DNA of 64,000 nucleotides from Beijerinckiaceae bacterium (GTDB taxonomy: Bacteria; Pseudomonadota; Alphaproteobacteria; Rhizobiales; Beijerinckiaceae): NCBI GenBank assembly GCA_009773635.1, contig WSYC01000015.1, positions 1 through 64,000 on the forward strand, in the 5' to 3' direction. Under the pieces are notes generated by a model, which saw only the letters and a program-made list of their open reading frames with translations, was not told where the DNA came from and did not search any database. Each line of letters opens with the position of its first letter. Position 1 is the stretch's first letter. A program made the position numbers and the translations under genes. Positions 11,501 to 63,756 of the stretch are shown here, piece by piece.

Positions 11501-12282
11501 AGGAAGACGAGAAGATCCGCTTCCGCGATGTCGTCGCCCAGCCGCGCAAGATCATCTCCGCGCCGACATGGTCGGGGCTGGAGAGCGAGAAGGTCTGCTA
11601 CAACGCCGGCTACACCAACGTGCACGAGTTGATCCCGTGGCGGACGCTGACCGGGCGTCAGCAGCTCTATCAGGATCACCTGTGGATGCGCGCCTTCGGC
11701 GAGGGCTTCTGCGTCTATCGCCCGCCGGTCGACCTGAAGACCACCGCCCATATCGCCGGGACAAAACCGAACGGCGAGAAGGAAGTGGTGCTGAACTTCA
11801 TCACCCCGCACCAGAAATGGGGCATCCACTCCACCTATACCGACAACCTGATGATGCTCACGCTCTCGCGTGGCGGGCCGATCGTCTGGCTCAGCGAGGT
11901 GGACGCCAGGAAGGCCGGCATTGTCGACAACGACTGGGTGGAAGCCTTCAACTCGAACGGCGCGCTGGTGGCGCGTGCGGTTGTCTCCCAGCGCATGAAG
12001 GAGGGCACGCTCTTCATGTATCACGCGCAGGAGAAGATCGTGAACGTGCCGGGCTCGGAAATGACCGGCAACCGCGGCGGCATCCATAACTCGGTGACCC
12101 GCGCCGTTCTCAAGCCGACGCATATGATCGGCGGCTACGCCCAGCTCTCCTACGGCTTCAACTACTACGGCACGATCGGCACCAACCGCGACGAGTTCGT
12201 CATCATCCGCAAGGTGAAGACGGTCGACTGGCTCGAACGTCCCGCCAAGGACGCCACCCCCACCCTGACGGCTGCCGAGTAA
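8539..12282 (+). CDS. narG: Respiratory nitrate reductase alpha subunit
   Basis: 1247 aa; N-terminal [30 protein letters not shown] typical of NarG; upstream of narHJI. Confidence 0.98.
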   Translation: [1247 protein letters not shown]

Positions 12283-12293
12283 GGAGAAAATCG

Positions 12294-36021: not shown

Positions 36022-36402
36022 CTACTCCAAGCCGCCACTCAGGCTTCGGACGGCTTGCAGCAAGTCTGATATGGCCTGCTCAGCCCCGGCGAGCTTCGTC
36101 GCAGCGATCAGATCCTGACGCGCTGCCATCATCAGGAACGCATTCATCACTTCGTCCGAGTTTCTGGCAAGTGCCACGAGGTGCGCCCCGCTCGGACCAT
36201 AACGTCCTGAAAACCAGTTCTTCGCAGTGCGTTCATTCGCGCCGGTCCATCCGGCCGCCGTCTTGATGCCAGCATGAGTCGAGCCCAGTGACCGATTCAG
36301 AGCGGCCGCAATTTCTGCCGCGAAAAATCCGTCATCGGAATGCCCGCCACCATTACACCCGTTTTGACCCGGAAAGAACTTGCCCTTTTTCGGAAACGAC
36401 AT
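36022..36402 (-). CDS. Putative DNA-binding/regulatory protein of mobile elements
   Basis: AGWTGANERTAKNWFSGRYGPSGAHLVALARNSDEVMNAFL HTH-like segment; divergent from the recombinase. Confidence 0.6.
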   Translation of the reverse strand: MSFPKKGKFFPGQNGCNGGGHSDDGFFAAEIAAALNRSLGSTHAGIKTAAGWTGANERTAKNWFSGRYGPSGAHLVALARNSDEVMNAFLMMAARQDLIAATKLAGAEQAISDLLQAVRSLSGGLE

Positions 36403-38071
36403 TCCACCCTCCTTGGCGTTAAATCACCGAGGAGAATTGAGCCGGGCCGTTGTAAGGGACATCGCGTTACGAACGGATTTGCGTGAGGGTAAATTGGTGA
36501 GGAGGCTGCACTCGAGTATTCCGCGATCGCGCGACGACGAAACGAGTGCAGAGACACCCGCAGTTGCTTACGTCCGCATGTCCACGGACCACCAGAAGTA
36601 CTCGACTGAGAATCAGCTGGATGTCATTCGACATTATGCAACAACGAGAGGACTGAAAATCCTCCGGGTGTTTGAAGACTCAGGCCGAAGCGGGTTGCGA
36701 CTCGATGGGCGCGAGGCGTTGCAGAAGTTGATGGCCGAAGTTGAATCCAAGATCGCGGATTTCTCGGCGATCCTGGTCTACGACGTGAGCCGCTGGGGTC
36801 GATTTCAGGATGCTGACGAAGGAGCCTACCACGAGCATGTCTGCTCTCGTGCCGGAATTCGCGTTCACTACTGCGGCGAGCAGTTCGAGAATGATGGCAG
36901 CATTGGCTCAAATCTGCTGAAAACCGTCAAGCGAGTAATGGCCGGCGAGTATAGCCGCGAACTGTCGGTGAAGGTGTTCGCGGGACAGTGCAGGCTGGTT
37001 GAACTGGGTTTCCGCCAAGGCGGCGCGCCAGGCTACGGGCTTCGTCGCGTGCTGATCGACGAGCATCGCAACATAAAGGGCGAACTGACGCGCGGCGAGC
37101 GAAAGAGCCTGCAAACCGACCGGGTAGTCCTTGTGGGAGGCCCGCCGCAGGAGGCAGATGTCGTTCGGCAAATGTATCGCATGTTCGTCGATGAAGGCCG
37201 ATCTGAACGCGAGATCGCATCGACGCTGAACGGACGAGGATTGTTGACAGATCTGGAGCGCCCGTGGACGCGAGCGTCGGTTCATCAGGTCCTGACCAAC
37301 GAAAAATACATCGGCAACAATGTCTTCAACAAGGTGTCCTTCAAGCTGAAGCAGCGACGGATCGTGAACCCACGTGACATGTGGGTTCGCGCAGAAGGGA
37401 TTTATCCGTCAATTGTAGATCAGGCATTGTTTGATCGTGCACGCGCAATCGTCGATGCACGATCTCGTCACTTTTCCGATGACGAGCTTCTTTCGATGCT
37501 CCGCGCTCTGCTGGAACAACAGGGCATACTGTCCGGGCTGATCATAGATGAGCGCGACGAGATGCCGTCTTCGAGCATCTATCGGCACCGGTTCGGGAGC
37601 TTGCTGCGCGCCTATGAGCTGATCGGTTACGATACAGAGCGTGACTACAGGTACATCGAAATCAATCGCGCGCTGCGCCGCGAACATCCGCGCATTGTCG
37701 CCGACGTCGTTTCTGGCGTTCAGCGCGCTGGTGGCGTGGCGACCCAGAACCCTGTCACCGATCTCCTATCGATCAATGGGGAATTCACGGCGTCGATCGT
37801 GATCTCGCGATCATTTCAAACGCGGAGTGGTGCTTTGCGCTGGCGGTTGCGCCTCGACACCGGATTGGTCCCGGACATCACGATCGCAATCCGGATGGAC
37901 GAGCTGAACGAGGCACCCCTCGACTACTACCTGCTGCCGACGATCGACATGAGTACCATGCGTTTGAAGCTCGCTGAACAGAACGGCCTGTCGCTCGACG
38001 CCTACCGGTTCGACAATCTCGATTTCTTCTTTGCGCTCGCCGGGCGGGCCAAGTTTTCGGAGGCAGCGTAA
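36380..38071 (+). CDS. Large serine recombinase (true start may be downstream, before AVAYVRMSTD)
   Basis: Catalytic YVRMSTDHQKYSTENQ, resolvase domain, recombinase domain (GAPGYGLRR...EREIASTLNGRGL...WTRASVHQVLTNEKYIGNNVFNK). Confidence 0.93.
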   Translation: MPFFGNDIPPSLALNHRGELSRAVVRDIALRTDLREGKLVRRLHSSIPRSRDDETSAETPAVAYVRMSTDHQKYSTENQLDVIRHYATTRGLKILRVFEDSGRSGLRLDGREALQKLMAEVESKIADFSAILVYDVSRWGRFQDADEGAYHEHVCSRAGIRVHYCGEQFENDGSIGSNLLKTVKRVMAGEYSRELSVKVFAGQCRLVELGFRQGGAPGYGLRRVLIDEHRNIKGELTRGERKSLQTDRVVLVGGPPQEADVVRQMYRMFVDEGRSEREIASTLNGRGLLTDLERPWTRASVHQVLTNEKYIGNNVFNKVSFKLKQRRIVNPRDMWVRAEGIYPSIVDQALFDRARAIVDARSRHFSDDELLSMLRALLEQQGILSGLIIDERDEMPSSSIYRHRFGSLLRAYELIGYDTERDYRYIEINRALRREHPRIVADVVSGVQRAGGVATQNPVTDLLSINGEFTASIVISRSFQTRSGALRWRLRLDTGLVPDITIAIRMDELNEAPLDYYLLPTIDMSTMRLKLAEQNGLSLDAYRFDNLDFFFALAGRAKFSEAA

Positions 38072-38982
38072 TGGCGGACGAAACCCTGATCGGCGGGCAG
38101 AAGCAGATCAAGTTGATTGCGACGGAACAGATCCGGGTCTTGAACCCGCGCGTTCGCAATAGGCGAAACTTCGAGGAGATCGTCGACAACATCGCGCGGA
38201 TCGGGCTGAAGCGGCCGATTACCGTCGCCAAGCGTCCGGGAAGCGACCCGGTGGAATATGATCTTGTGTGCGGCCAAGGACGCCTTGCAGCGTTCATCGA
38301 GCTCAAGCAGACCGCCATTCCCGCGATTGTCATTGATGCCGATGAAAGTGATTGTCTGGTGATGAGCCTCGTCGAAAACTGTGCCCGTCGGCAGCACAGG
38401 GCGATTGATCTGATGCAGGAAGTCGGGGCGCTTCGGAAGCGTGGCTACAGTGATCGGCAGATCGCGGAGAAGATCGGGGTCAGCCCAGAATACGTGAACA
38501 TGATCGCTGGTCTACTGGAACGTGGCGAAGAGCGACTTGTATCGGCTGTGGAGACGGGTCTGTTGCCGCTAAGCCTAGCGATCGAGATTGCGCGTACCGA
38601 TGATGAGGGTGCCCAGCGCGCACTGACGCAGGCCTATACAGAGAAAAAGCTGCGAGGAAAGAAGCTCGCCGCCGTTCGTCGATTGTTGCAACAACGACAG
38701 CGGCGTGGGCCGCAGGTGCCAGAAAGCCGCTTCGGTCGACACGATCCTTCCCATCGTCCGTTGACGAGCGAAGCGCTCGTTCGCGTCTATCGTCAGGAGG
38801 CAGACCGCCAGAAATTGATGATCAAGAAGGCCGATGTCACCCAGAGCCGGCTCTTGTTTGTCGTCGAGGCAATCCGCACGCTGCGTGCCGACGAGCATTT
38901 CGTCACACTCTTGCGCGCCGAAGGTCTGGAAACGATGCCATCCTATCTGGAACAGAGCATGGCAGCGAGGTCGACGTCATGA
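38071..38982 (+). CDS. ParB/RepB/Spo0J-like nuclease-domain protein
   Basis: IRVLNPRVRNRRNFEEIVDNIARIGLKRPITVAKR..YDLVCGQGRLAAF, HTH RKRGYSDRQIAEKIGVSPEYVN. Confidence 0.9.
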   Translation: MADETLIGGQKQIKLIATEQIRVLNPRVRNRRNFEEIVDNIARIGLKRPITVAKRPGSDPVEYDLVCGQGRLAAFIELKQTAIPAIVIDADESDCLVMSLVENCARRQHRAIDLMQEVGALRKRGYSDRQIAEKIGVSPEYVNMIAGLLERGEERLVSAVETGLLPLSLAIEIARTDDEGAQRALTQAYTEKKLRGKKLAAVRRLLQQRQRRGPQVPESRFGRHDPSHRPLTSEALVRVYRQEADRQKLMIKKADVTQSRLLFVVEAIRTLRADEHFVTLLRAEGLETMPSYLEQSMAARSTS

Positions 38983-39896
38983 AACCCGATCCGCGTCGCC
39001 GCCCCGATGCCGTCACTCTCGGATTTGAGGATGGCTGCGTGTTGTTACCTGTGAACTCGATCCTGCCGGTGCATGCATTGCGCAAGACCGTGAAAGCGAG
39101 CCAGAAGTACCGACAGATCGCCGCCTCGATCAAGGAAGTCGGGTTGGTCGAGCCGCCGGTCGTGGCGCGCGATCCGAAGCAGCCCGGCGTTTATCTTCTG
39201 CTCGATGGGCATCTGAGGATAGAGATCTTGAAGGAAATGGGACGCAATGAGGTTGAGTGTCTTGTTTCCACCGACGATGAGGCCTTCACCTACAACAAGC
39301 GGGTGAGCAGGCTGGCCGCCGTCCAGGAACACAAGATGATCCTGCGTGCGATCGAACGTGGCGTCCCAGAGGAGAAGATAGCGAAAGCTCTGTCAATCAA
39401 CGTGCATAGCGTCCAGCGCAAGGTCCGCATGCTTGACGGCATTTGCGAGGAGGCAATCGCCTTTCTAAAGGACAAGCCGTGCCCGATGGCCGTGTTCGAG
39501 GTATTGCGCAAGATGAAGGCGCTTCGTCAGATCGAGGCGGCTGAGCTGCTGGTCAATGCGAACAATTATTCCGTCAGCTATGCCTCTGCCATCCTGGCCG
39601 GGACGCCGCAGTCGCAATTGGTTGATGCTGAAAAGCCGAAGCTGTTGAAGGGCATCACACCCGAAGCCATGGCGCGGATGGAGCGCGAGCTCGGCCGGTT
39701 GCAAGAGGTGATCACGTCGATCCAGGATTCTTATGGCAAAGACCATCTGCAACTTACCGTGATAAAAGGCTATCTCACGCGACTGTTGGGAAATGGTCGG
39801 ATCGTTCGATATCTGATGCAGCACCGGCCGGAATTCATGGCCGAGTTTCAGGCGATCGCCGAGATGAGTTCAACGCTGCCGTCCGAAGCGACCTGA
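38979..39896 (+). CDS. ParB-like protein with RepB-type C-terminus
   Basis: SQKYRQIAASIKEVGLVEPPVVARDPKQPGVYLLLDGHLRIEILKEMG; ATGA overlap with upstream ParB. Confidence 0.88.
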   Translation: MKPDPRRRPDAVTLGFEDGCVLLPVNSILPVHALRKTVKASQKYRQIAASIKEVGLVEPPVVARDPKQPGVYLLLDGHLRIEILKEMGRNEVECLVSTDDEAFTYNKRVSRLAAVQEHKMILRAIERGVPEEKIAKALSINVHSVQRKVRMLDGICEEAIAFLKDKPCPMAVFEVLRKMKALRQIEAAELLVNANNYSVSYASAILAGTPQSQLVDAEKPKLLKGITPEAMARMERELGRLQEVITSIQDSYGKDHLQLTVIKGYLTRLLGNGRIVRYLMQHRPEFMAEFQAIAEMSSTLPSEAT

Positions 39897-40303: not shown

Positions 40304-41197
40304 ATGGTGGCGATGGACAAGGCGGACCTGCGATGGGGCGTCGAGCGACGACTCGAGTTCATCGAGTTCCGTTTGTTTTGGGAGGGGCAAGTGAATCGAG
40401 GGGATTTGATGGAAGCGTTCGGCGTGTCGGTGAACCAGTCGTCCACCGACCTGAACCGTTACATCGCCCTCGCACCGACCAATATGGCCTACGACAAGAG
40501 CGCCCGGACCTACGTCAGAGGAGACGGATTTTCTCCGCTTTTCCTCAAGCCGGATGCAAGTCGATACCTGGCCCAGCTGCGCTCTGTCGCGGACGGCATC
40601 CTGGACCGATCCGATTGCTGGATTGGTGCAATTCCGCAGTTCGATGCCGCTCCCACGCCGGTCCGAGGCGTGGTCGCAGCCACTCTTCGCTCCATCGTTT
40701 CGGCAATACGCCGGTCAGAAGCAATCGAGATTCGGTACCAGTCGCTTTCCAGGCCGGAGCCGCTTTGGCGATGGATTGCTCCGCATGCCATTGGGTTCGA
40801 TGGCTTCCGTTGGCATGTCAGGGCGTTCTGTCTGACGGATCAAGCATTCAAGGATTTCCTTCTCTCCCGCATGTTGGAGACGCGTGCGACACGCTCAAGT
40901 GAGATCAGCGCTGACTCGGACTCGGACTGGAATGAGCAGGTGACGTTGGAAGTCGGGCCTCACCCAGCCCTTTCTGAAACGCAGCAGAAGGTTATCGCTC
41001 TCGATTATGGGATGCACAGCGGAAGGGCCAAGATCCCTGTCCGAAAGGCACTTTTGTACTACGCGCTCAAACGGCTTGGTCTCGACACCGATCCTGCAGC
41101 TCGGCGACCGCAAGACCAGCAGATCGTTCTGCTCAATGGCCTTGAACTCGGCATGGGATCGCATGCTCAGACAGCCTCGTCCAGAATGGAGGGCTGA
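40304..41197 (+). CDS. WYL-domain regulator (BrxR/CapW-like)
   Basis: N-terminal wHTH RRLEFIEFRLFWEGQVNRGDLMEAFGVSVNQSSTDLNRYI and WYL-like core IEIRYQSLSRPEPLWRWIAPHAIGFDGFRWHVRAFC. Confidence 0.9.
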   Translation: MVAMDKADLRWGVERRLEFIEFRLFWEGQVNRGDLMEAFGVSVNQSSTDLNRYIALAPTNMAYDKSARTYVRGDGFSPLFLKPDASRYLAQLRSVADGILDRSDCWIGAIPQFDAAPTPVRGVVAATLRSIVSAIRRSEAIEIRYQSLSRPEPLWRWIAPHAIGFDGFRWHVRAFCLTDQAFKDFLLSRMLETRATRSSEISADSDSDWNEQVTLEVGPHPALSETQQKVIALDYGMHSGRAKIPVRKALLYYALKRLGLDTDPAARRPQDQQIVLLNGLELGMGSHAQTASSRMEG

Positions 41198-41199
41198 CG

Positions 41200-41658
41200 A
41201 TGATCGAAGCGTTGGATCGTCTCGTTGAGGATGTTTCGGGCCTGAACAGCAAGTTGGTTCTCCTGATTGGCCACCCTCGTACAGGAAAGAGCAGTCTGCT
41301 GGGTCGACTGGCTGAAAATAGGCAGATGCGCTTGTTGAATGTCGGAATGGAGTTAGGTCGTAAATTGCTGTTGGTTTCCAGTACACGAAGACATTTGCAA
41401 GCGACGGACATGTTGAAAGAGCTTGCGGATGATTCTTCCCACAACGGCCTGCTGATAATGGACAATATCGAGATCTTATTCGACCAGACGCTAAAGTTAA
41501 GCCCGCTCGAGTTGTTGAAGCGGCATGCTCACGCGCGTCGCGTCGTTGCGGCGTGGCCAGGAGAACTTCGGGAAGGCCGACTTTCCTACGCCACAACAGG
41601 ACATCCAGAACATCAGGACTACGGCATCGACGGCCTGGTCCCGTTCAAGATTCATTGA
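41200..41658 (+). CDS. brxF: BREX-3 P-loop protein BrxF
   Basis: Walker A GHPRTGKSS, LLIMDNIEILFDQTLKLSPLELLKRHAHARRVVAAWPG; directly upstream of brxC. Confidence 0.9.
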   Translation: MIEALDRLVEDVSGLNSKLVLLIGHPRTGKSSLLGRLAENRQMRLLNVGMELGRKLLLVSSTRRHLQATDMLKELADDSSHNGLLIMDNIEILFDQTLKLSPLELLKRHAHARRVVAAWPGELREGRLSYATTGHPEHQDYGIDGLVPFKIH

Positions 41659-41672
41659 AGGGGGAATGCGGG

Positions 41673-44600
41673 ATGCCGATGCACTATGGCGATCTCATTC
41701 AGTTTGAGCCGATTGAGTCGGTTATTCAGCTTCTGGACGCTAACCGCCCGGACGAGGCGAAGAAGCTTGTCTCGACCTACGTCATCTCCGACGACATGGC
41801 AGAGCGCATCTCAAAGCTCATAATACCACAGCTCTCATTCGACGAAGCAGTGGACCATAAGGGCGTGCTGGTCGTCGGAAACTACGGAACTGGTAAGTCA
41901 CACCTTATGTCGGTGCTCTCGCTGGTGGCAGAGGACGCCGCATATGTCTCGATGATCCGTCATCCTAAAGTTGCTGAATCTGCTGGCGCAATTGCAGGGA
42001 AGTTCAAAGTTCACCGGATCGAGGTCTCAAGCCAGATGTCTCTCCGGGACATCATCACGCAGCAGCTTGAGGTTTTCCTCGAAAAGCATGGCGTGAGCTT
42101 CGCCTTTCCGCCCGCCGACAAGGTCATAAACAACAAGTCCGCGTTCGAAGAAATGATGGCGGCATTTGCAGAAGTGCACCCGAACCAGGGCGTCCTTCTC
42201 GTGGTGGATGAATTCCTTGAGTATCTTCGGTCCCGAAAAGACCACGATCTTGTCCTTGACCTCTCTTTCCTGCGTGAGATTGGTGAGGTCACCAAGCATC
42301 TTCGCTTCCGCTTTGTTGCTGGTGTTCAGGAAGCGATCTTCGACAGCAGCCGCTTCCAGCACGTCGCCGACAGCCTGCGTCGCGTAAAGGACCGCTTCTC
42401 CCAAGTCCTGCTTGCTCGCCAGGACGTAAGCTTTGTCGTGGCCGAGCGCCTTTTGAAAAAGACGGCCGCTCAGCAAGACAAGATCCGTACATATCTGACG
42501 CCATTCGCGAAATTCTATGGCTCCATGAATGAGCGTATGGACGAGTATGTCCGGCTCTTTCCGGTTCATCCCGACTACATCGGCACATTCGAACGCTTGG
42601 TGTTCACGGAGAAGCGCGGTGCGCTGGTTACGCTGCGGGACCAAATCCAAGCGATCTTGAATGAAGAAGTGCCGAACGACCGCCCGGGGCTGATCGGCTA
42701 TGACAAATTCTGGGATACGGTGACTTCGAACTCTGTCCTCCGCGCAGATCCGAATATCGGGCCTGTGCTCAAGATCTCTGAAGTGTTGTCAGAGCGGGTC
42801 CGGAAAGCCTTCACACGCCCGGCATACAAACCCATGGCGCTGCGGATCATCGATGGGCTGGCGGTGCATCGCCTGACTACCGGCGGCGACATCTATGTCC
42901 CGGTTGGCCCAACGGCCGAGGAACTTCGCGACACGCTTTGCCTGTTTCAGCCCGGCATCGGAGATATGGGCGGTGAGCCCGAGGCTGACCTCCTCTCGCT
43001 TGTCCAAACTGTCCTTCGAGAGACGCTGAAGACCGTGAACGGTCAGTTCATTTCGAAGGCGCCCGACACCGAGCAGTACTATCTCGATCTGAAGAAGGAT
43101 ATCGACTACGACGCCCAGATAGACAAACGGGCTGAAGCGCTCTCCGACGACACGCTTGATCGCGCTTACTACAGTGCCATTCGGCAACTCATGGAGCGCA
43201 CAGACGAAACAACATACGTCACCGGCCATCAAATCTGGCAGTATCAAATCGAATGGCAGGATCGCCGGGTAGAGCGCAATGGCTATCTATTCTTCGGCGC
43301 ACCCAACGACCGTCCGACGGCCCAACCTGAGCGAGACTTCTATATCTATTTCATTCAGCCGTTCGAGCCACCGCGCTTCCGGGATGAACACAAGGCCGAC
43401 GAGGTCTTCTTCCGGCTGAAGGGGCTCGATGATGCGATCAGGCGTCACCTGTCCGTCTATGCGGCGGCACAGGACCTCGCGTCGACAGCCAGTGGCGGGG
43501 CGAAATCAATTTACCTCGACAAGGCCAAAGACGCGCTGCGCGATATGAGCAAGTGGCTCCAGGAAAAGCAGATGACCGCCTATGAGGTCACTTTCCAGGG
43601 CAAAACGAAGACACTGCAGGAATGGGCCAAGGGTATCTCCCTGCGAGACAAGGCGCGGCTCGGTGCGGACGAGCGCATCAACTTCCGCGACGTCGTGAAC
43701 ATCATCTCCGGCTTGGCACTGAACAACCGATTTGCCGAGGTGGCGCCGGAATATCCGACCTTCTCGGCATTGGTGACCGAGACCAACAGGAAGCAGCTCG
43801 TTGCAAATGCTCTTCGCACCTTGGCAGGCGGAACGCGCACGAAAGATGCCGTGGTCATCCTTGACGGCCTTGAGATGCTTGATGGTGAGCGTATCGACCC
43901 TGCTCGGTCGCGATTTGCACAAGAGGTACTTGCCCGGCTCAATGCGAAGGGTCACGGCCAGGTGCTCAACCGCAGCGAACTACTCAGCGGAGTCACAGAC
44001 GTCGAGCATTTCGCTCCGGTCAAATTCCGCCTTGAGCCTGACCTGTTGGTTGCCGTGTTGGGCGGACTGGTCTATGCGGGCGACATCGTCCTGGCGATCA
44101 CCGGCGACAAAATCGACTCCGGCAAGATCACGCTGTTGGCTGAACGACCGCTCGACGAACTGAAGCAGTTCAAACACGTCGAGGCTCCGAAGGAGATCAA
44201 TGTCGCCATCCTTCGAGCGCTGTTCGAGTTGCTTGCGCTGCCGCCAGGGCTTGCACAGCAGGCGACCCAAGGCTCGGACGAGCCTGTCAAGTTTCTTCAG
44301 GAAGAAGTCGGTAAACTGACGCGGCGCGTGCTCAGTGCTTCCACAGACATGGCTGGAAGGCTGAGCTTCTGGGGTCAGTCGCTCCTTCGAGATGAAGAGA
44401 TCCGCGATTGGCGCTCGAAGCTCGATGCATTGAAAAGCTTCTCCGAAAGCCTGTCACCCTACAACACCGTGGGCAAGCTGAAGAACCTGAGGATCAGCGC
44501 CGACGACATCGCAGCCCAGAAAAAGAACCTCGAAATCCTGGATGCGATCGAGCGGATGCTGGATCTCGTCGCAGAATTGGGGACGACCGCCAGTTACCTG

Positions 44601-45404
44601 TCTCAGGCCGAGATGGTCTTGTCTCCAGATCATGCATGGGTGAAGCAGGCGCAAGCCACCCGAAAGCAGGTTCTCGACAAGCTCGCCGCTGACCGGACGG
44701 CGGAGCACGCAGCTGAATACAGGCAGACGCTCGGCCAGTTGAAGAGGGACTACCTCACAGCTTATGTCGGGCAGCACAGCAAGGCCCGTCTGGGCGTCGC
44801 GGAGGACAAGACCAAGTCCGTTCTGCGCAAGGATCCGCGCCTTGTGTCGATGCGCGCTCTGGCGGGCATTTCCCTGATGCCGACCAGTCAGCTGTCGAAT
44901 TTCGAGGAGAAACTCGACAAGCTGAAGAGTTGCGCCGCGCTCGTTGACTCCGAGCTTGCAGCGAGCCCGGTCTGTCCGCACTGCGGCTTCCGCCCGGCGA
45001 ACGAGCAAGGGGATATGCTGCCTGCGGCCAACGTCCTCAAGTTGCTCGATGATGAGTTGGACCGGCTGCTGGGCGGCTGGCAGCAGACGCTCCTCGACAA
45101 CCTCGAAGACCCGATTATCCAGTCGAACTTCGACCTCTTGCGCCCTGCGGCCAGGACGCTGGTCGATGGTTTCGTGAAATCGAAATCGCTGCCCGATCCC
45201 GTGCCGCCGGACTTCGTTTCCGCGGTTCAGGAGGCGCTGTCAGGGCTGGAGAAAATCGGGATTTCCAGCGACGACATCAGACAAGCGCTGCTTCAGGGAG
45301 GATCGCCGGCATCGCCGGACGAGTTGCGTAAGCGGTTCGAGAGCCTCCTCAACGACCGCTGCAAGGGCAAGGACACGACCAAACTCCGCTTCGTGGTGGA
45401 GTGA
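41673..45404 (+). CDS. brxC: BREX-3 ATPase BrxC (DUF6079-like)
   Basis: MHYGDLIQFEPIESVIQL.., Walker A VVGNYGTGKSHLMSVLS, VLLVVDEFLEYL; ~1240 aa. Confidence 0.93.
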   Translation: MPMHYGDLIQFEPIESVIQLLDANRPDEAKKLVSTYVISDDMAERISKLIIPQLSFDEAVDHKGVLVVGNYGTGKSHLMSVLSLVAEDAAYVSMIRHPKVAESAGAIAGKFKVHRIEVSSQMSLRDIITQQLEVFLEKHGVSFAFPPADKVINNKSAFEEMMAAFAEVHPNQGVLLVVDEFLEYLRSRKDHDLVLDLSFLREIGEVTKHLRFRFVAGVQEAIFDSSRFQHVADSLRRVKDRFSQVLLARQDVSFVVAERLLKKTAAQQDKIRTYLTPFAKFYGSMNERMDEYVRLFPVHPDYIGTFERLVFTEKRGALVTLRDQIQAILNEEVPNDRPGLIGYDKFWDTVTSNSVLRADPNIGPVLKISEVLSERVRKAFTRPAYKPMALRIIDGLAVHRLTTGGDIYVPVGPTAEELRDTLCLFQPGIGDMGGEPEADLLSLVQTVLRETLKTVNGQFISKAPDTEQYYLDLKKDIDYDAQIDKRAEALSDDTLDRAYYSAIRQLMERTDETTYVTGHQIWQYQIEWQDRRVERNGYLFFGAPNDRPTAQPERDFYIYFIQPFEPPRFRDEHKADEVFFRLKGLDDAIRRHLSVYAAAQDLASTASGGAKSIYLDKAKDALRDMSKWLQEKQMTAYEVTFQGKTKTLQEWAKGISLRDKARLGADERINFRDVVNIISGLALNNRFAEVAPEYPTFSALVTETNRKQLVANALRTLAGGTRTKDAVVILDGLEMLDGERIDPARSRFAQEVLARLNAKGHGQVLNRSELLSGVTDVEHFAPVKFRLEPDLLVAVLGGLVYAGDIVLAITGDKIDSGKITLLAERPLDELKQFKHVEAPKEINVAILRALFELLALPPGLAQQATQGSDEPVKFLQEEVGKLTRRVLSASTDMAGRLSFWGQSLLRDEEIRDWRSKLDALKSFSESLSPYNTVGKLKNLRISADDIAAQKKNLEILDAIERMLDLVAELGTTASYLSQAEMVLSPDHAWVKQAQATRKQVLDKLAADRTAEHAAEYRQTLGQLKRDYLTAYVGQHSKARLGVAEDKTKSVLRKDPRLVSMRALAGISLMPTSQLSNFEEKLDKLKSCAALVDSELAASPVCPHCGFRPANEQGDMLPAANVLKLLDDELDRLLGGWQQTLLDNLEDPIIQSNFDLLRPAARTLVDGFVKSKSLPDPVPPDFVSAVQEALSGLEKIGISSDDIRQALLQGGSPASPDELRKRFESLLNDRCKGKDTTKLRFVVE

Positions 45405-46759
45405 CGCACATGTCGATTCAAGCAGTTACCGACATAGACGTCCTTTCCCTTTCGGTCCGTGATCGGGAGTCTCGTCGACTGGTCGAGGAAGCGATTACGG
45501 CATATCGCGGAGGAGCTCTTCGCTCGGCAATCATGTCGGTCTGGATCGCAGTCGTGCACGACGTCTTCTCCAAGGCTCGAGAACTGGCTGGCCAAGGAGA
45601 TGCAGCCTCCATCGCGTTCATTGAGAGACTGGACAATGCGATCGAGCACAAGAGCATTGTGCAGATGCAGGCACTGGAGCGAGAGCTGCTGGATACGGCT
45701 AAGGACGCTCTGCAGCTCGTCACGCCTCACGAGTACGAGACGCTCAGGAGGATCCAGGAGGACCGCCACCAGTGCGCGCACCCGGCTTTCATCACGGAGG
45801 ACGAACTATTTCAACCGTCTCCGGACCTCGTCAGATCGCATCTCGTTCACGCTCTGAAGTGCCTGCTAATTCATGCCCCGCTTCAGGGAAAGAGTGCACT
45901 TAACCGCTTCAAGGCAGACGTTCTCAGTCCTTCTTTTCCGTCAACCGAGGAAGGCATCAGGACCTTCGTCTCGGCCAAATATCTGAATCGCTCCAAAGAC
46001 GCCTTGGTAGCAAACCTGATCAAGGTTCTGCTCAAGGCACCGTTCTTAGAAGGTGAAGAGGAGCTGCTCAGAAAGAAGCGCCAACTTGCATGGACACTTA
46101 GCGAGGTCGCCGCGAAGAAGACGCGGATATTTGAGGAGATCGCCCGTCCCTTCGTCGGTCAGTTCTTTGATGGCGTGGGCGACGATCGATTACTGAACAT
46201 CTGTACCTATATCGGTGCAGAACAGCAACTGTGGGGTTGGCTTACTGAACCAGTCAAGTTGCGTCTAGTACGCCTGATCGAGGAGTGTACGATCGAGGAC
46301 TTGAAAGACCATCTCGTCTTCGATGCGTTTGCTATTCCTGAATTGGCTGACACCTTATTAGCGAAGTTCACGAGCTTCGCAGCGCCCGAGCGCGTACAGC
46401 TCTTATCTGACAATCCCTGCAGAGAGTTCGTGCCATTCGGCATCGACATCTATTCTGCCTCAGGAAGTTATCGGGATGCGGAGAAGCTGGGACTGACTGT
46501 CGTAATTCCTCTCGCTCGGCATTTCGCGGCTGATGACATCCGCAGAATCCTCGATGCCGTGCTCGGAAACAGCCAAATTTCGTACGCGTCGGGGACAGCA
46601 GACGTTCTGCTGGAAGTTTTCAAGCTGACTTCAGCGGCTCTGCCTGCATCGCGCGACCATTGGCAACGATTTGTCGACGAGATGACCGCCCAGCACGGCG
46701 GCAAGCCTGACACGCCGTACTCCTATCCCAGCATCCGCGCAAAACTAGACGCCGTCTAA
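45401..46759 (+). CDS. Unknown protein in BREX-3 operon with HEPN-like R-X4-H motif
   Basis: Starts GTG 45401 or ATG 45410, overlapping brxC stop; helical N-terminus with EDRHQCAHPAF (R-H-x3-H). Confidence 0.85.
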   Translation: MTHMSIQAVTDIDVLSLSVRDRESRRLVEEAITAYRGGALRSAIMSVWIAVVHDVFSKARELAGQGDAASIAFIERLDNAIEHKSIVQMQALERELLDTAKDALQLVTPHEYETLRRIQEDRHQCAHPAFITEDELFQPSPDLVRSHLVHALKCLLIHAPLQGKSALNRFKADVLSPSFPSTEEGIRTFVSAKYLNRSKDALVANLIKVLLKAPFLEGEEELLRKKRQLAWTLSEVAAKKTRIFEEIARPFVGQFFDGVGDDRLLNICTYIGAEQQLWGWLTEPVKLRLVRLIEECTIEDLKDHLVFDAFAIPELADTLLAKFTSFAAPERVQLLSDNPCREFVPFGIDIYSASGSYRDAEKLGLTVVIPLARHFAADDIRRILDAVLGNSQISYASGTADVLLEVFKLTSAALPASRDHWQRFVDEMTAQHGGKPDTPYSYPSIRAKLDAV

Positions 46760-46771
46760 AGGTGTGGCCCC

Positions 46772-49564
46772 ATGAATGACCTCTTGAAACAATCACCTCA
46801 GACCGGCCCTGTTGAATGCCTCGGGAAGACCTTCCCAAGCGATCAGGCGCGGCGGGAACATTTTCTGACGCTGTTGGCGGCGAAGCTGAAGGATGCCGAG
46901 TTCCGCAAGCAGGAAGGGTTTCCGAAAGGAACGGATGAGGCGATCCTCGCGATGTCGGATCCACCCTACTATACCGCTTGCCCGAACCCTTGGCTCACGG
47001 ATTTCGTTGCCTACAATGGTACCCTTTATGGACAGCACGACGGTCATCGTGAAAAGGAGCCGTTTGCGAGCGACGTGAGCGAAGGGAAAAACGACGTAAT
47101 CTATAACGCGCACGGATATCACACGAAAGTCCCGTACAAAGCTATTGTGCGCTACATCCTTCACTACACCCTACCTGGCGACGTCATATTCGACGGGTTC
47201 TGTGGAACCGGGATGACTGGTGTAGCAGCCCAGTTGTGCGACGATTCGTCTGTCGTTAATTCACTGGGTTATCGAGTTGAGAAGGATGGGTCTATTCTTG
47301 AGTCCTACCAAGAAGGCGCCAAATTGAATTGGCGAAAAATATCTAAAATTGGTCGAAGGAACGCAATCCTGAATGATCTTGCACCTGCGGCGACCTTTAT
47401 TTCAAAAAATTATAACAACAACTTCAAAATTGACTTGTATGAAAATCGTGCGGAAGGCGCTCTGCGTGAAGTCGAAAATGCGATCGGATGGATTTACGAG
47501 ACAACTCACGGAGGCGGCAAGTCCAAGGGACGCATAAACTACACCGTTTGGTCTGATGTGTTTTCGTGCCCGGAGTGCGCCGGAGAGATCGTGTTTTGGG
47601 ATGTGGCCGTTGACACAAAGCAGAAGAAAGTCCTTGACGAGTTTCACTGTCCACACTGCTCATTTCAAATTAGTAAGAACAGCATGGAGCGTGCGTATTC
47701 ATCCGAATACGATACTGCAATCTCGCAAAATGTGAGAAGCGCAAAGCAGGTTCCTGTAATGATAAATTACAGCTCCGGATCAGCCCGCTTCGAGAAAAAG
47801 CCGGACGCTCATGATCTAGAGATAATTGCAGAGCTGCAAAAAATTCGCATTCCGTTCGCCTATCCTGCCGATCGGATGATGGAAGGGCGTGAATCTCGTA
47901 GAAACGACCCAATCGGAATGACGCATACACATCATTATTTCACACACAGAAATCTTTACGCCATATCTGCTTTAATCAATTCATTTGGTGATGACGAAGT
48001 TGCATCCATATTAAAGATGACTGTCTTGGATTGCTTTTCTGTACTCACAAAAATGTCGAGATTTAGAGCTCCCGCTTGGTTCGACAAGTCGACTGGACCT
48101 ATGAAAGGGTGGACGGCAGGAACGCTTTATGTGCCGTCCCTTCAGGGGGAGCAGAATGTATTTAATGCATTTCTTGAAAAATCTAAAATGATAGTGCGTG
48201 CGCACAATCCTAAAATTTCACGCCAGTGTATTTCAACGGGTCACAGCGGAAGAATGCTATTGGCTGATAACAGCATTGATTACATATTTCTCGACCCGCC
48301 GTTTGGGGCGAACATTAGCTACTCAGAACTAAATTACATATGGGAGAGCTGGCTGGGTGTTTCCACAAATATCGCAGATGAAGCAGTAGAGAACACTTCT
48401 CACGGAAAAACATTGCACGATTATCGTGCTTTGATGTCGGCATGTTTTCGAGAGGCCTATCGAATATTGAAGCCAGGCCGCTGGATGACTGTGGAATTTT
48501 CGAATACTAAGGCATCAGTCTGGAATGCAATTCAGATTGCATTGCAGGAGGCGGGATTCGTTGTCGCTAATATTTCTGCGCTCGATAAGAAGCAAGGCAG
48601 CTTCAAGGCAGTTACGACGACAACCGCCGTAAAGCAAGATCTTGTCATTTCGGCCTATAAGCCTAACGGAGGCCTAGAGGAGAGATTTGCTAGCTCAGGA
48701 GGGAATGAGCAGTCTGTTTGGGATTTTGTGAGAACGCATCTTTCCTATCTCCCATCGGTAAAGATGAAGTCCGGCGTCTTAGAGTTCATCGCAGAAAGAG
48801 ATCCAAGAATTATCTTCGACAGGATGATTGCGTGGTTCGTTAGGCACAACGTTGCTGTGCCAATCTCCAGCCAGGAATTCCAAGATGGGTTACGCAGTCG
48901 CTTTCCTGGCCGCGATGGCATGGTGTTCCTGCCCGAACAGGTTACCGAGTACGACCGCAAGCGCGCGCAAGTTGCTCAGGCGCCGCAGATGGAGATGTTC
49001 GTCGCCGACGAGCGCAGCGCCATCGACTGGCTGACCGATTTCCTGCGCAAGCGCCCCTCGACCTATCAGGAACTGCACCCTGACTTTATGACGCAGCTTG
49101 GGGCGGGCTGGAAGAAGCATGAAACCCGCCCCGAACTCTCTGAGCTGCTGGAGGATAATTTCCTGCGCTATGACGCATCCGGCGACGTGCCGAGCCAGAT
49201 CCACAACTACCTGTCGACGAACTTCCACGATCTTCGGAACCTCGAAAAATCCGACCCACGATTGAAGGCGAAGGCCAAGGATCGCTGGTTCGTGCCCGAT
49301 CCGAACAAGGCACAGGATCTGGAGAAGAAGCGTGAAAAAGCGCTGCTGAAGGAATTTGAAGCCTACCGCGATGCGCCGGGACGACGCCTGAAAGAGTTCC
49401 GGCTCGAAGTGTTGCGTGCGGGCTTCCGATCCGCGTGGGCCGCGAAAGACTTCAAGACGATCATCTCGATTGCCCAGAAGGTGCCGGAAGAGGCGCTGCA
49501 GGAAGATGAGAAGCTGCTGTTCTGGTACGACAGCGCGCTCACACGCATGGAGGCCAATGCGTGA
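46772..49564 (+). CDS. pglX: BREX adenine-specific DNA methyltransferase PglX (type 3)
   Basis: SDPPYYTACPNPW, IFDGFCGTGMTGVAAQ, FLDPPFGANISYSELNYIWE; zinc-finger-like CPECA..CPHC. Confidence 0.93.
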   Translation: MNDLLKQSPQTGPVECLGKTFPSDQARREHFLTLLAAKLKDAEFRKQEGFPKGTDEAILAMSDPPYYTACPNPWLTDFVAYNGTLYGQHDGHREKEPFASDVSEGKNDVIYNAHGYHTKVPYKAIVRYILHYTLPGDVIFDGFCGTGMTGVAAQLCDDSSVVNSLGYRVEKDGSILESYQEGAKLNWRKISKIGRRNAILNDLAPAATFISKNYNNNFKIDLYENRAEGALREVENAIGWIYETTHGGGKSKGRINYTVWSDVFSCPECAGEIVFWDVAVDTKQKKVLDEFHCPHCSFQISKNSMERAYSSEYDTAISQNVRSAKQVPVMINYSSGSARFEKKPDAHDLEIIAELQKIRIPFAYPADRMMEGRESRRNDPIGMTHTHHYFTHRNLYAISALINSFGDDEVASILKMTVLDCFSVLTKMSRFRAPAWFDKSTGPMKGWTAGTLYVPSLQGEQNVFNAFLEKSKMIVRAHNPKISRQCISTGHSGRMLLADNSIDYIFLDPPFGANISYSELNYIWESWLGVSTNIADEAVENTSHGKTLHDYRALMSACFREAYRILKPGRWMTVEFSNTKASVWNAIQIALQEAGFVVANISALDKKQGSFKAVTTTTAVKQDLVISAYKPNGGLEERFASSGGNEQSVWDFVRTHLSYLPSVKMKSGVLEFIAERDPRIIFDRMIAWFVRHNVAVPISSQEFQDGLRSRFPGRDGMVFLPEQVTEYDRKRAQVAQAPQMEMFVADERSAIDWLTDFLRKRPSTYQELHPDFMTQLGAGWKKHETRPELSELLEDNFLRYDASGDVPSQIHNYLSTNFHDLRNLEKSDPRLKAKAKDRWFVPDPNKAQDLEKKREKALLKEFEAYRDAPGRRLKEFRLEVLRAGFRSAWAAKDFKTIISIAQKVPEEALQEDEKLLFWYDSALTRMEANA

Positions 49565-52374
49565 CACAGGCGGGCGGTGGATATGGCATCGGCGAGTGGT
49601 GCTGGCATGCACGGCATGCCGCGCCTTGCCGTGTCGTGGACCGTCAGGATGTCTGGGGCGAGACCGCCTATCGCGTCTGGCTGCCTGCCAAGGATGCCGT
49701 CGTGCGGGCGCGAGGGAAGGACCTTTCACCGTTGGACGAGGTTCGGCCCACGGTCGATCAGATCCTGCATACGGCGGCGGCGGCGAAGCTGCTCGACGCG
49801 CTCGAAGACAATCTGTTGCTGGCGCCGATCCAATCGAGCGTCGTGCCGCTGCCGCATCAGCTCTATGCGCTGAACCGGGCGATGAGCCGCGACCGGATCC
49901 GCTACCTGCTGGCGGATGAGGTCGGGCTCGGCAAGACCATCGAAGCCGGTCTCATCCTGCGCGAACTCAAGCTGCGCGGCATGGCCAAGCGGATCCTCGT
50001 GGTCGCACCAAAGGGGCTCGTGCGACAGTGGCAGGCCGAGATGCGGCTCCATTTCGGAGAGACGCTGCAGTACATCGAGCCGGCAGAGCTTTCCGCCTTC
50101 CGCCAGTGGCGGAATGACGAGGAAAACCTCTGGCGGCTGCATGATCAAGTGATCTGCTCGCTCGATTCCGTGAAGCCGATGGAGGCGCGTCGGGGCTGGA
50201 GCTTGGAGCAGCTCAGCACCTACAATCGAGAACGCTTCGAGGATCTGATTTCGGCATCCTGGGATCTCGTCATCATCGACGAGGCACACCGCATGGGCGG
50301 GAGCACGGACCAGGTCGCGCGCTACAAGCTGGGCGCGGCGCTTGCTGAAGCAGCACCCTACCTGCTTCTGCTGTCAGCAACGCCCCATCAGGGGAAGACC
50401 GACCAATTCATGCGGCTGATGCAGTTGGTCGACCGGGATTCCTTTCCCGATGAAAGCAGCGTGACCAGCGAGCGCGTGCGCCCCTTCGTCGTCAGAACCG
50501 AGAAGCGTGTCGCGATCGACGCCGAAGGCAAGCCTCTCTTCAAGCCCCGCATGACGCGCCTTCATCCGGTCGCCTGGCTCGATCGTCACGCGGCTCAGCA
50601 GCAGCTTTACGAGGCGGTCACCGACTATGTGCGCCACGGCTACAATCAGGCCATGGCCGCGAAGCAGCGGCATATCGGGTTCCTCATGATCCTGATGCAG
50701 CGGCTGGTGACATCCAGTACGGCCGCCATTCGTGTCACGCTCGAAAAACGCCAGGCTCTGCTGGACAAGCCGCCGGCCCAGCCATCGCTGTTCGACACCG
50801 CCGATGTCGACGAATGGGCGGATCTCGACGGCCAGACGCAGGTGGACATCGCCGTCCAGGCCAAAGGCTGGGAGATGGAGAAGGCGGAAGTCGACACGCT
50901 GCTGAGGCTCGCCCGGTCCACCGAAGCGCAGGGAACAGACGCGAAAGCCGAAGCGCTGCTGGAGCTGATCTACAAGCTCCAGCAGGAAGAGAACGATCCG
51001 GAGTTGAAGGTCCTCGTGTTCACCGAGTTCGTGCCGACACAGGCGATGCTTGTTGAATTCCTGGAGAGCCGGGGCTTCTCGATCGCGACACTCAACGGCA
51101 GCATGGATCTCGACGCCCGTAGCCGCGCCCAGAAGGCATTCGCGCAAACGGTGCGCATCCTGATTTCGACCGATGCCGGTGGCGAAGGTCTGAACCTTCA
51201 GTTCTGCCACGTCATCGTCAATTTCGACATGCCATGGAACCCGATGCGGGTCGAACAACGCATCGGCCGCGTCGACCGTATCGGGCAGCCTCATGTCGTC
51301 CGCGCGATCAACTTCGTGCTCGAAGATACGGTCGAGCACCGCGTTCGCGAGGTGCTGGAGACCAAGCTTGCGATCATCGCCGAGGAGTTCGGCGTCGACA
51401 AAGCCGCCGATGTGATGGATTCCGTCGAGGCGGAGCCGCTGTTCGACGAACTGTTCGTCCAGGGATTGCAGAATCCCGACGCCATCGAAGCCAAATGCGA
51501 TGCCGTGGTATCGCAGCTTCGGTCAACGATCGCGGAAAGCCGCAAGAGCAGCGATCTCCTTGCTGATGGTCACGACCTTGATGCCGACGATGCGCGGAAA
51601 TGGCGGGATCATCCAGCGCAATTCTGGCTTGAGCGGGCGATCACGACCGGACTGCCATCGAGGGGCGGTGAAGCGACCAAGGATGGCCATGCATGGCGGG
51701 TTCGCTGGGGCGATGGTAGCGAGACGGCCTCGGTTTGCTTTGACGCGCGCACCGCCGAAGGCAATCCGGCGATCGAGTGGGTAACCCTTGAGGATCCCCG
51801 AGCTCGCGCACTGATCAGCGACCTGCCGCGCTGCGTGGCAGGCCAGCCCATGCCGATCGTTCGGATCGCCGGACTGCCTGAAAGCGTCCGTGGGGTCTGG
51901 TCGTTATGGGAGGTCAGCTTGTCTGCAGACGATTTCAGTCGGCGACGCTTCATGCCCGTGTTCATAAACGATGAGGGGCGCACGTTTTTGCCGACAGCCA
52001 AGCGCATCTGGGATCTGCTGCTCACCGAACAGGTGACGTTGGTCGGACCGCCAGCGATCTCGGATGTGGCGGCTTGGTTCGAAAAATCGAGCAGCGCTGC
52101 CATGGTCCAAGGCGAGCGCATATTCTCCGATCTGGCCGGAGCGCACAAAACCCGCATTCAGGAAGAACGCGAGCGCGCCCAATACGCTTATGAAGCCCGG
52201 CATCAAGCCGTTGGCCGCATCGGCCTTCAGAATGTGAGAGAGCATCGTCGAAAGCGCCTTCAGTTGGACCACGACATCCGCATGGCGCAGCTTGATGCCT
52301 CCGAGGCCTACGCTCCCGATCTCAATGCCATCCTGGTATTGCGCATCGGGGAGATTTCGGCAGGTGCATCATGA
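49561..52374 (+). CDS. brxHII: BREX-3 SNF2/DEAD-like helicase BrxHII
   Basis: LLADEVGLGKTIEAGLIL, DEAH (VIIDEAHRMGG), LLLSATPHQGKTDQF, MRVEQRIGRVDRIGQ. Confidence 0.94.
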   Translation: MTQAGGGYGIGEWCWHARHAAPCRVVDRQDVWGETAYRVWLPAKDAVVRARGKDLSPLDEVRPTVDQILHTAAAAKLLDALEDNLLLAPIQSSVVPLPHQLYALNRAMSRDRIRYLLADEVGLGKTIEAGLILRELKLRGMAKRILVVAPKGLVRQWQAEMRLHFGETLQYIEPAELSAFRQWRNDEENLWRLHDQVICSLDSVKPMEARRGWSLEQLSTYNRERFEDLISASWDLVIIDEAHRMGGSTDQVARYKLGAALAEAAPYLLLLSATPHQGKTDQFMRLMQLVDRDSFPDESSVTSERVRPFVVRTEKRVAIDAEGKPLFKPRMTRLHPVAWLDRHAAQQQLYEAVTDYVRHGYNQAMAAKQRHIGFLMILMQRLVTSSTAAIRVTLEKRQALLDKPPAQPSLFDTADVDEWADLDGQTQVDIAVQAKGWEMEKAEVDTLLRLARSTEAQGTDAKAEALLELIYKLQQEENDPELKVLVFTEFVPTQAMLVEFLESRGFSIATLNGSMDLDARSRAQKAFAQTVRILISTDAGGEGLNLQFCHVIVNFDMPWNPMRVEQRIGRVDRIGQPHVVRAINFVLEDTVEHRVREVLETKLAIIAEEFGVDKAADVMDSVEAEPLFDELFVQGLQNPDAIEAKCDAVVSQLRSTIAESRKSSDLLADGHDLDADDARKWRDHPAQFWLERAITTGLPSRGGEATKDGHAWRVRWGDGSETASVCFDARTAEGNPAIEWVTLEDPRARALISDLPRCVAGQPMPIVRIAGLPESVRGVWSLWEVSLSADDFSRRRFMPVFINDEGRTFLPTAKRIWDLLLTEQVTLVGPPAISDVAAWFEKSSSAAMVQGERIFSDLAGAHKTRIQEERERAQYAYEARHQAVGRIGLQNVREHRRKRLQLDHDIRMAQLDASEAYAPDLNAILVLRIGEISAGAS

Positions 52375-54365
52375 GCGCCTGGATTGATAGGATCGTGCAC
52401 GATTTTCCTGTCGACTTGTCCCACTTCTGGATTGCATGCGATCCGGACGATCTTCTCTTGGACGAACGGATGCTGCTGAGCCTTCGAGAGCGGGGCTTCG
52501 AAGTCATGCCTTTTGAGGATTCTATAGCCTTTCGAACAGAGTACGAAGAGCGCTATCGAGCAGCGTGGGACCGGGGAAAGGATGGATCTGCCAAAGCGCT
52601 GATCTTGCAGCTCCATGGCAGCGATGTGAACGTGTTACCTTGGGACTACATTCGCGATGGGCGACAGGTCCGTTTGGGCTTGGCAGACCTGTTTCCCAAG
52701 CTCAGTTATAGTGTGATCCGACGAATTGGCTCCGAATACCACGAGGCGCTGTTTGCAGCCCACAATCGGCATGGGACACACCCTTTAGGTGAGAGTGCCA
52801 CCAAAGATTTCATCCTTACGCACATCTTCCGCATCAGCCCATATTTGCTCAACCGCCCCGAAGATTTCTGGCGAGAAGTCTTACGCCTGCACTACCGCGG
52901 ATCTGGCCTGCCGGATCTCCTCGCGGATCATGTATCTGCAATTCTGAGCGAAACCACGCTTGTAGATCTTCCGGTTGCCGAGTTGCTCTCTTCGAAGAGC
53001 TACATGGTGCGTGTCGTGCAAGATGCCTGGGAGCGCTTTCTGGGGCAGTACGGCGTCCACAGCTCTCGAAGCTCGGATGCAGAGCCGACAGAGGCGTTTC
53101 GCGCAATTGCTATTCCGTTTGAGCATCCGGATGTCCGGATGATCGTGGACACGATGTTTCTTGAGGCAACACTCCAGCCGGTAACCATCAAAGGCTCTCC
53201 CATTGGCATCCCGGATTGGGCCAAGGTGGGGCTCATCAGTGATCCCAATGCGCTTGCCGATCTCGTCCGTGATGGCGTGACGAGGATTTCCGGGGAGCTG
53301 CCTGGCATAGATTCTTCGCATCGTGACTGGGGCGATCTCGCGCGCCGATTGGGCGAGGTGATCTTCAGGTTCCATAGCTTGAACGCGAGCCTCGCAGATA
53401 CCGTATTGAAACAAGTCCGGCAGTTGCAACATGAAGCAGATGAACGACTAAAAGCATGGATTTTGAAGCATTTCGCTGATCTGCCGTCCCTGCCTGCCGC
53501 GAAAGCGCCAGTCATGGTTCACCATGTGCCAAGGTTTCTCGCGCTACGCCGCAGCGCTGGCGAGGATCGCATTGCACTTCTTGTGTTCGATGGCCTCGCG
53601 ATGGATCAGTGGATCCAGATCCGTGAGTATCTCACGGAGCGCGTTCCGGGATTTGCAGTAGAAGACGGTGCTTGCTTCGCCTGGCTTCCAACTCTCACAT
53701 CGGTCTCCCGGCAGGCGCTTTTTTCCGGTTTGAAGCCACGAGAATTCGCGGGCTCCATCTCGACGACGTCTCAAGAGCCGTTGCTGTGGGAACGGTTCTG
53801 GCAGGAAAATGGTCTACGCAAGCCGGAGATCTACTATCAGAAGAGCCTCAAGCGGAATGCTCAACTGACTGAGTTGGAAGACGCTATTTCCCACCCGGCC
53901 ACGAAGGTCGCCGGAATAGTCGTCGATATGGTCGACGAAATCGTCCACGGCGCGATGTTGGGCAAGCGAGGTATTGCCGGGCAGATCAGCGCTTGGTGCG
54001 ACACCGGGTTCGTTGAGGAGCTATTCCTGATGCTCGCAAGGCACGGGTATCAGATCTACCTCACCGCTGACCACGGAAATGTCGAAGCGGAAGGGATTGG
54101 TCGGCTCAACCAAGGAGTTGTTTCGGAAGTAAGAGGTGAGAGGGTGCGGACATATCGCAGTGATGCCCTCGCTGAATCAGTGCCCGAGGGAATTGACGGC
54201 TTTCGTTTCGATATCGCTGGACTACCGTCCGACTTCTTGCCGCTATACGCCGGCACCCGGGGAGCATTCGTTCCGAAGGGAGACCAGATCGTCGCGCACG
54301 GTGGAATCTCCGTAGAGGAAGCGATCGTTCCATTCGTAAAAATAACAATCAAGAGATCTACTTGA
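52371..54365 (+). CDS. pglZ: BREX phosphatase-like protein PglZ
   Basis: RIALLVFDGLAMDQWIQI..., YLTADHGNVEAEGIG, alkaline-phosphatase-like metal motifs. Confidence 0.93.
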   Translation: MSAWIDRIVHDFPVDLSHFWIACDPDDLLLDERMLLSLRERGFEVMPFEDSIAFRTEYEERYRAAWDRGKDGSAKALILQLHGSDVNVLPWDYIRDGRQVRLGLADLFPKLSYSVIRRIGSEYHEALFAAHNRHGTHPLGESATKDFILTHIFRISPYLLNRPEDFWREVLRLHYRGSGLPDLLADHVSAILSETTLVDLPVAELLSSKSYMVRVVQDAWERFLGQYGVHSSRSSDAEPTEAFRAIAIPFEHPDVRMIVDTMFLEATLQPVTIKGSPIGIPDWAKVGLISDPNALADLVRDGVTRISGELPGIDSSHRDWGDLARRLGEVIFRFHSLNASLADTVLKQVRQLQHEADERLKAWILKHFADLPSLPAAKAPVMVHHVPRFLALRRSAGEDRIALLVFDGLAMDQWIQIREYLTERVPGFAVEDGACFAWLPTLTSVSRQALFSGLKPREFAGSISTTSQEPLLWERFWQENGLRKPEIYYQKSLKRNAQLTELEDAISHPATKVAGIVVDMVDEIVHGAMLGKRGIAGQISAWCDTGFVEELFLMLARHGYQIYLTADHGNVEAEGIGRLNQGVVSEVRGERVRTYRSDALAESVPEGIDGFRFDIAGLPSDFLPLYAGTRGAFVPKGDQIVAHGGISVEEAIVPFVKITIKRST

Positions 54366-55084
54366 TGAAGTCGCCTGCACCTCAGATCGGATTTGACCGT
54401 TTCATCAAACTGGAATGGGCGGAAGCTGCGCTTCGCGTGAGGGCTGGCGTTTCAAATCTTGATGATCTTGCCAAAATTCTAGACGCATCTCACCCCGGTA
54501 CTGCTGCGAAGAAAAAGACACGAACGGTGCTGAATCGGCTGTGGCTGGAGCCGCTGCGTTCAGACTTAGTCGAGTTCGCGGATCGCGGGGCCAAAATTTA
54601 TCGGGATGGGCCGGATATCTCTGTTCCTGCCATGACTTGGGGGATGGCGTTGGCCACTTATCCATTTTTTGGGAAAGTGGCAGAGATAGTTGGCAGGCTC
54701 ACCGCTCTGCAAGGCGAATGCACCTCCGCTGAAATCCACAGAAGAATGGCTGAAATCTATGGAGAACGCGAGGGAACGCGCCGCATGACGAACATGGTCC
54801 TTCAATCTCAAGCCAGTTGGGGTGCCATCGAGAGACTTGAGAATGGCAAAAGGATTATCCGCAAGAAATCAATCGATCTCCATGGCTCACCAGTCGCCGC
54901 TTGGCTGGCAGAAGCATGCTTGAGATACGCTGGTCGCAGCCTGCCAGTGGCAAGCCTCGACTCAAACCCAATGATATACCCGTTCGCGCTGGGAGGCTCC
55001 ATCTCGTACCTTCTCTCGAAATCGTCCACCGTCGAGATGCGCGTCGACGGCACAGGTAATCAGGTTATTGGTCTGTCGAGTTGA
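54365..55084 (+). CDS. brxA: BrxA-like BREX protein
   Basis: Last gene of operon; helical ORF with KIRTVLNRLW-like region and position expected of BrxA in type 3 BREX. Confidence 0.72.
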   Translation: MKSPAPQIGFDRFIKLEWAEAALRVRAGVSNLDDLAKILDASHPGTAAKKKTRTVLNRLWLEPLRSDLVEFADRGAKIYRDGPDISVPAMTWGMALATYPFFGKVAEIVGRLTALQGECTSAEIHRRMAEIYGEREGTRRMTNMVLQSQASWGAIERLENGKRIIRKKSIDLHGSPVAAWLAEACLRYAGRSLPVASLDSNPMIYPFALGGSISYLLSKSSTVEMRVDGTGNQVIGLSS

Positions 55085-63697: not shown

Positions 63698-63756
63698 GGG
63701 GCTAGCTTTTCCGGGAGAGGGCGTGTATATAGAAACGCAATACAAGGAGTTGCGAC

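Follow-up and report, generated by a model that had tools for sequence, protein, structure and literature searches.

An accessory HEPN-family gene at the brxC–pglX junction of a type 3 BREX operon

A stretch of 64,000 nucleotides from a Beijerinckiaceae bacterium (hereafter the window) carries a complete type 3 BREX operon in which a further gene (45401–46759, forward strand) sits between brxC and pglX. Sequence comparisons identify its product as a member of the PD-T7-3/BxaP/Dandelion family, with a predicted N-terminal HEPN-type domain and a helical-repeat C-terminus. We consider it likely that the protein is an RNase which infection activates to arrest the cell, and that its co-expression with BREX provides a second line of defence. 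The advance is a modest one: a clade of this family bound to BREX-3, a new position within the operon, and a junction that serves as a swap slot.

Results

The operon contains the whole set of brxF, brxC, pglXI, brxHII, pglZ and brxA on the forward strand. The preliminary description of the locus as type 3 BREX, with a gene inserted between brxC and pglX, was borne out by matches over the cut-off for BrxF (41200–41658; NF033453, E = 1.5e-53) and for a PglZ of the BREX-3 type, PglZ_3 (52371–54365; NF033449, E = 9.5e-210). The listed brxC (41553–45404) matches PF19557 (DUF6079) with 1925 bits as well as PDLC02482; because DUF6079 begins at residue 43, the true start probably lies near 41679. Downstream of the inserted gene follow the pglXI methyltransferase (46772–49564; PDLC02541, 1360 bits), the brxHII helicase (49561–52374; PDLC02500, 1432 bits), pglZ and finally brxA (54362–55084; PDLC02444, E = 4.5e-61). 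Directly 5′ of brxF, and on the same strand, is a gene for a WYL-domain protein (40304–41197; PF13280, E = 1.2e-11), a probable regulator; a WYL neighbour of BREX-3 is common to loci L004, L006, L042 and L044.

Just upstream of BREX-3, at 36380–39896 of the window, a large serine recombinase (Resolvase and Recombinase domains) is followed by two tandem ParB/RepB-like genes, and these may mark the BREX-3 island as an integrative element. On the reverse strand, 59747–63745 encodes a protein of a gene transfer agent or phage tail (GTA_TIM, Rcc01698-like), so the island probably borders on a gene transfer agent cluster.

The ORF of the inserted gene is open throughout and, from its listed GTG start, encodes 452 amino acids, the start sharing 4 nt (GTGA) with the brxC stop. 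An in-frame ATG at 45410 is preceded 8 nt upstream by GGAG, and the Thauera homologue (L006) begins at the equivalent methionine, so the true start is probably this ATG, giving 449 amino acids and a start 5 nt past the brxC stop. The overlap with brxC noted earlier thus holds for the ORF as listed but not for the gene read from the likelier start, while 12 nt do separate its stop codon from the pglX ATG (46772), as had been reported. Comparison with three homologues gave dN of ~0.04 against dS of 0.8–1.0 (dN/dS ~0.05), indicating strong purifying selection on the gene.

Searches of Pfam and NCBIfam with the window protein returned no family. The PADLOC profile for PD-T7-3 (PDLC04108), by comparison, matches it with E = 5e-37, aligning residues 11–395 to positions 5–397 of 432. 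Single-sequence searches found homology to the solved protein Dandelion (PDB 9wxf; E = 2e-20, residues 17–292) and to the entry for its N-terminal domain, 9wx2, which the depositors named 'Dandelion-hepn' (E = 2e-14). The family profile, which already includes the Dandelion sequence as L094, covers Dandelion over its whole length, with hits to 9wxf, to 9wx2 and to 9wwz, the entry for the C-terminal part. This sequence is apparently identical to the Z-region ORF of P2-EC30 and to IMG/VR contig L094. In entry 9wxf a single sequence makes up all 12 chains, a hint of an oligomer. Literature searches found no relevant paper on Dandelion as a defence system, and no published RNase assay for any member of the PD-T7-3/BxaP/Dandelion family. 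One relative matches PF13643 (DUF4145) below the cut-off (E = 0.0024), and comparison of the N-terminal profile by hhalign with a small set of 12 DUF4145 proteins was not significant (E = 0.03, a value that a control segment also reached).

The HEPN superfamily is defined by an R-x4-6-H motif with a polar residue after the arginine, and by an upstream Ex3[KR] motif (PMC3710099). The N-terminal domain of the window protein (approximately residues 10–165; 45428–45895) contains D54-x3-K58, E93 and R122-x4-H127-P128. In the preliminary description, EDRHQCAHPAF had been read as the HEPN motif; this segment corresponds to residues 120–130, and R122 and H127 do not vary among the 24 members of a divergent alignment (A6), in which identity to the window protein falls to 17%. 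Only nine columns of A6 are invariant (Y35, R41, D54, K58, E93, R122, H127, P128 and P139). In a second alignment of 25 N-terminal domains (A7), R122, H127 and P128 are again invariant and D54-x3-K58 nearly so, meaning that the codons of the R-x4-H-P motif (R122-H-Q-C-A-H127-P128; 45764–45784) specify residues conserved in both alignments. The family therefore carries the HEPN signature, R122-x4-H127 with N or H after the arginine, and D54-x3-K58 resembles the upstream motif with D replacing E. In several relatives (L018, L050, L099, L108 and others) the proline after the HEPN histidine is residue 121. A chance motif was rejected, since R-x4-H-P is invariant across the family. The putative HEPN assignment, which agrees with the earlier call, rests on homology to a solved domain named as such by its depositors and on the two conserved motifs, R-x4-H and D-x3-K.

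An AlphaFold2 model built from 24 sequences (mean pLDDT 89, pTM 0.73; an earlier run on 5 close sequences had reached pLDDT 55) consists almost entirely of helices, and places the R-x4-H motif at the end of helix 109–126. The C-terminal region (approximately residues 166–452; 45896–46756) is confidently predicted to be all-helical, as had been anticipated, and is solenoid-like in the model; it also shows a profile match to PDB 9wwz; the suggestion that it acts as a sensor is a guess. A whole-chain Foldseek search against PDB and BFVD gave no HEPN match, and the Dandelion entries were absent too, an outcome that speaks neither for nor against a HEPN fold. The matches obtained were weak, to HEAT/ARM/PUF-like helical-repeat or unrelated proteins, and the former fit the description of the BxaP C-terminus as HEAT-like.

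A contig search using the window protein alone and blind to context, a method that reaches close relatives only, found five homologous loci, in Devosia, Gemmobacter, Camelimonas, Paeniroseomonas (L005) and Thauera (L006). All five homologues occupy the brxC–pglX position of BREX-3, a linkage that the preliminary description had proposed to check; including the window, six alpha- and betaproteobacterial genomes share the arrangement. In a quick-method tree of 37 members, from which L005 was omitted owing to a frameshift, the window protein, the other four homologues and a relic (L041) form one clade (SH-aLRT 99). The frameshift splits the Paeniroseomonas gene (L005, 5295–6654) near residue 80 and may be a sequencing error or mark a broken gene. 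The relic is a frameshifted homologue beside a pglX fragment (L041, G344:C193, 2978–4331); a C-terminal fragment of brxC lies on a different contig of that genome (L086, G344:C20, 3584–3718), and the two are remains of a HEPN-bearing BREX-3. Other family members whose surroundings were examined stand alone on plasmids, lie in prophages or adjoin other systems such as Wadjet. IMG/VR searches found none with the window protein alone, and found relatives with the family alignments.

Across the window interval 41553–52374, identity to L002–L006 is 47–62% for PglX, 82–90% for BrxC, 67–93% for the HEPN protein and 77–87% for BrxHII. PglX is thus far more diverged than the other three proteins, as expected if methylation specificity is exchanged.

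BREX-3 loci were also gathered through BrxF, DUF6079 or PglX, leaving the HEPN gene unused, which yielded 16 intact brxC–pglX junctions besides that of the window. Half of these contain a Schlafen AlbA_2 protein (L034, L035, L036, L043, L044, L082, L083 and L159), accompanied by an Mrr-like REase in L036 and by a GHKL ATPase in L082. Single junctions hold Septu PtuAB (L163), PDC-M07AB (L038), a PIN protein (L162) or a DUF1828 protein (L037), and four are empty (L042, L045, L084 and L085). The HEPN gene was found in none of the 16; it is therefore one of the rarer occupants. In a BrxC tree, an empty junction (L042) and a Schlafen-bearing one (L044) are sisters (100/100), as are the HEPN-bearing L005 and the Schlafen-bearing L043 (95/97). 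The brxC–pglX junction behaves as a swap slot, its contents changing between close BrxC relatives.

The pglX–brxH junction is a second variable slot, holding HEC-02 in L082, a similar ATPase pair in L162 and other ATPase pairs in L084 and L085. In L159 this slot contains a distant member of the HEPN family (G800, 11685–13181; PDLC04108, E = 6e-7; hhalign probability 97) that keeps R-x4-H-P. L159 represents the BxaP arrangement in a Pseudomonadota genome, with the Schlafen gene present in its brxC–pglX slot as well. Two further loci have unusual layouts: L036 (G441:C27) is a BREX-3 that has pglX twice, with one copy lying between brxF and brxC, and the Aeromonas BREX-3 of L046 (NZ_AP026896.1, 4.9 Mb, labelled plasmid) has a transposase-like insert near the 3′ end of brxC and a pglX match in pieces kilobases apart.

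Discussion

We propose that the HEPN gene would be kept as an accessory effector at the brxC–pglX junction and co-expressed with BREX-3. By analogy with relatives that have been tested, the protein would be inactive before infection, probably restrained as an oligomer; on infection a trigger would set it to cut RNA through the R122/H127 site, and the resulting stop in growth would keep phages that survive BREX from spreading. A self-contained trigger is favoured both by the independence of BxaP from BREX and by the abundance of stand-alone relatives; the slot-bound distribution of the clade argues for some benefit of position. The RNase chemistry, the oligomeric restraint, the trigger and any tie of the gene to BREX past co-expression are inferred.

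A rival reading, which we think somewhat more likely than not, is a stand-alone defence gene that has settled at a tolerated BREX junction with its own trigger, gaining only co-transcription. Such a gene would share the RNase mechanism proposed above and differ solely in coupling, BREX taking no part in its activation. Most family members stand alone on plasmids, lie in prophages or adjoin other systems, unrelated systems (Septu, PDC-M07) occupy the same slot, and BxaP is protective in a strain that has neither BREX nor type I R-M, so that the operon position may be mere carriage; however, the five close homologues all lie in exactly the brxC–pglX slot and those placed in the tree fall in one clade, which suggests a lasting positional benefit. 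Coupling could instead be tight, with the junction acting as a dedicated effector socket whose occupant (HEPN, Schlafen, Septu or PIN) is linked to the BrxC–PglX complex, physically or by regulation, and fires when the complex is blocked or meets unmodified DNA; that the HEPN clade is a BREX-gated RNase of this kind appears distinctly improbable.

The chemistry might also differ from our proposal, in that a non-catalytic HEPN-type domain could accompany a helical-repeat part that binds RNA or ribosomes and blocks translation without cleavage. The helical-repeat character of the C-terminus fits this idea, as does the weak HEAT-domain match of BxaP to ribosome-binding Gcn1 reported by its authors (PMC10799925), but the catalytic-type R, H and D-x3-K are invariant and a purely structural domain would not need them, making it unlikely. 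A structural subunit of one BREX-3 branch, required for methylation or exclusion, would account for the location inside the operon, the tight spacing and the recurrence in six genomes. Loci whose BrxC is 82–84% identical to that of the window nevertheless do without the gene, having an empty slot (L042) or Schlafen (L043, L044 and L083), and the empty L042 and filled L044 are themselves close BrxC relatives, so we regard this role as most improbable. A core BREX subunit was rejected, the gene being absent from most BREX-3 loci; the earlier statement that no HEPN RNase belongs to the BREX-3 core accords with a gene that is accessory.

If an infection-activated second line is indeed its role, a proven one-gene anti-phage family would constitute a recurrent, swappable second line inside BREX-3. 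Close BREX-3 backbones with HEPN, Schlafen or nothing offer a ready comparison for asking if such inserts are functionally tied to BREX or just travel with it.

An association of HEPN genes with BREX has already been published. The nearest precedent, compared here by its description, is BxaP (2024), a protein of the DUF4145/HEPN type that resembles PD-T7-3 and is encoded within type 3 BREX between pglXI and brxHII; it gave Abi-like protection independent of BREX, in a strain lacking BREX and type I R-M (PMC10799925). Among tested relatives of the window protein, others have shown protection against phages and Abi-like growth curves. The window protein likewise combines a putative HEPN-type N-terminus with a HEAT-like helical C-terminus and an insertion in type 3 BREX, but its gene lies between brxC and pglX instead of between pglXI and brxHII. 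Mutation of P121 weakened defence by BxaP (PMC10799925), and this residue shares its number with the proline after the HEPN histidine in several relatives, a match by numbering only. The same paper reports R-M linkage (PMC10799925); no type I R-M genes were seen in L098 and L099, two viral contigs that were inspected closely.

PD-T7-3, tested as a single-gene anti-phage system (Vassallo et al. 2022, PMC9519451), and Dandelion (9wxf, 9wx2, 9wwz; the P2-EC30 Z-region ORF) belong to the same family over nearly the full length, but are ~20% identical and stand alone in P2-like prophages, with no BREX. HEPN genes in Pgl operons were noted earlier (PMC3710099), and a 2026 survey, covering 919 taxa with BREX-3, lists genes for HEPN, Schlafen, PIN and REase proteins among the auxiliary or backup effectors found in BREX loci (PMC12839542). 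Its HEPN and Schlafen effectors resemble the present case in that a gene of RNase type lies within the core locus; PD-T7-3 and BxaP are not mentioned in the accessible part of its text, which also does not go through the brxC–pglX junction position by position. Finally, the preliminary description had proposed an abortive-infection effector that acts when the first line is inhibited, and this is the logic of PARIS (AriA/AriB), an Abi effector located beside BREX or R-M, although its domains differ from those of the HEPN gene.
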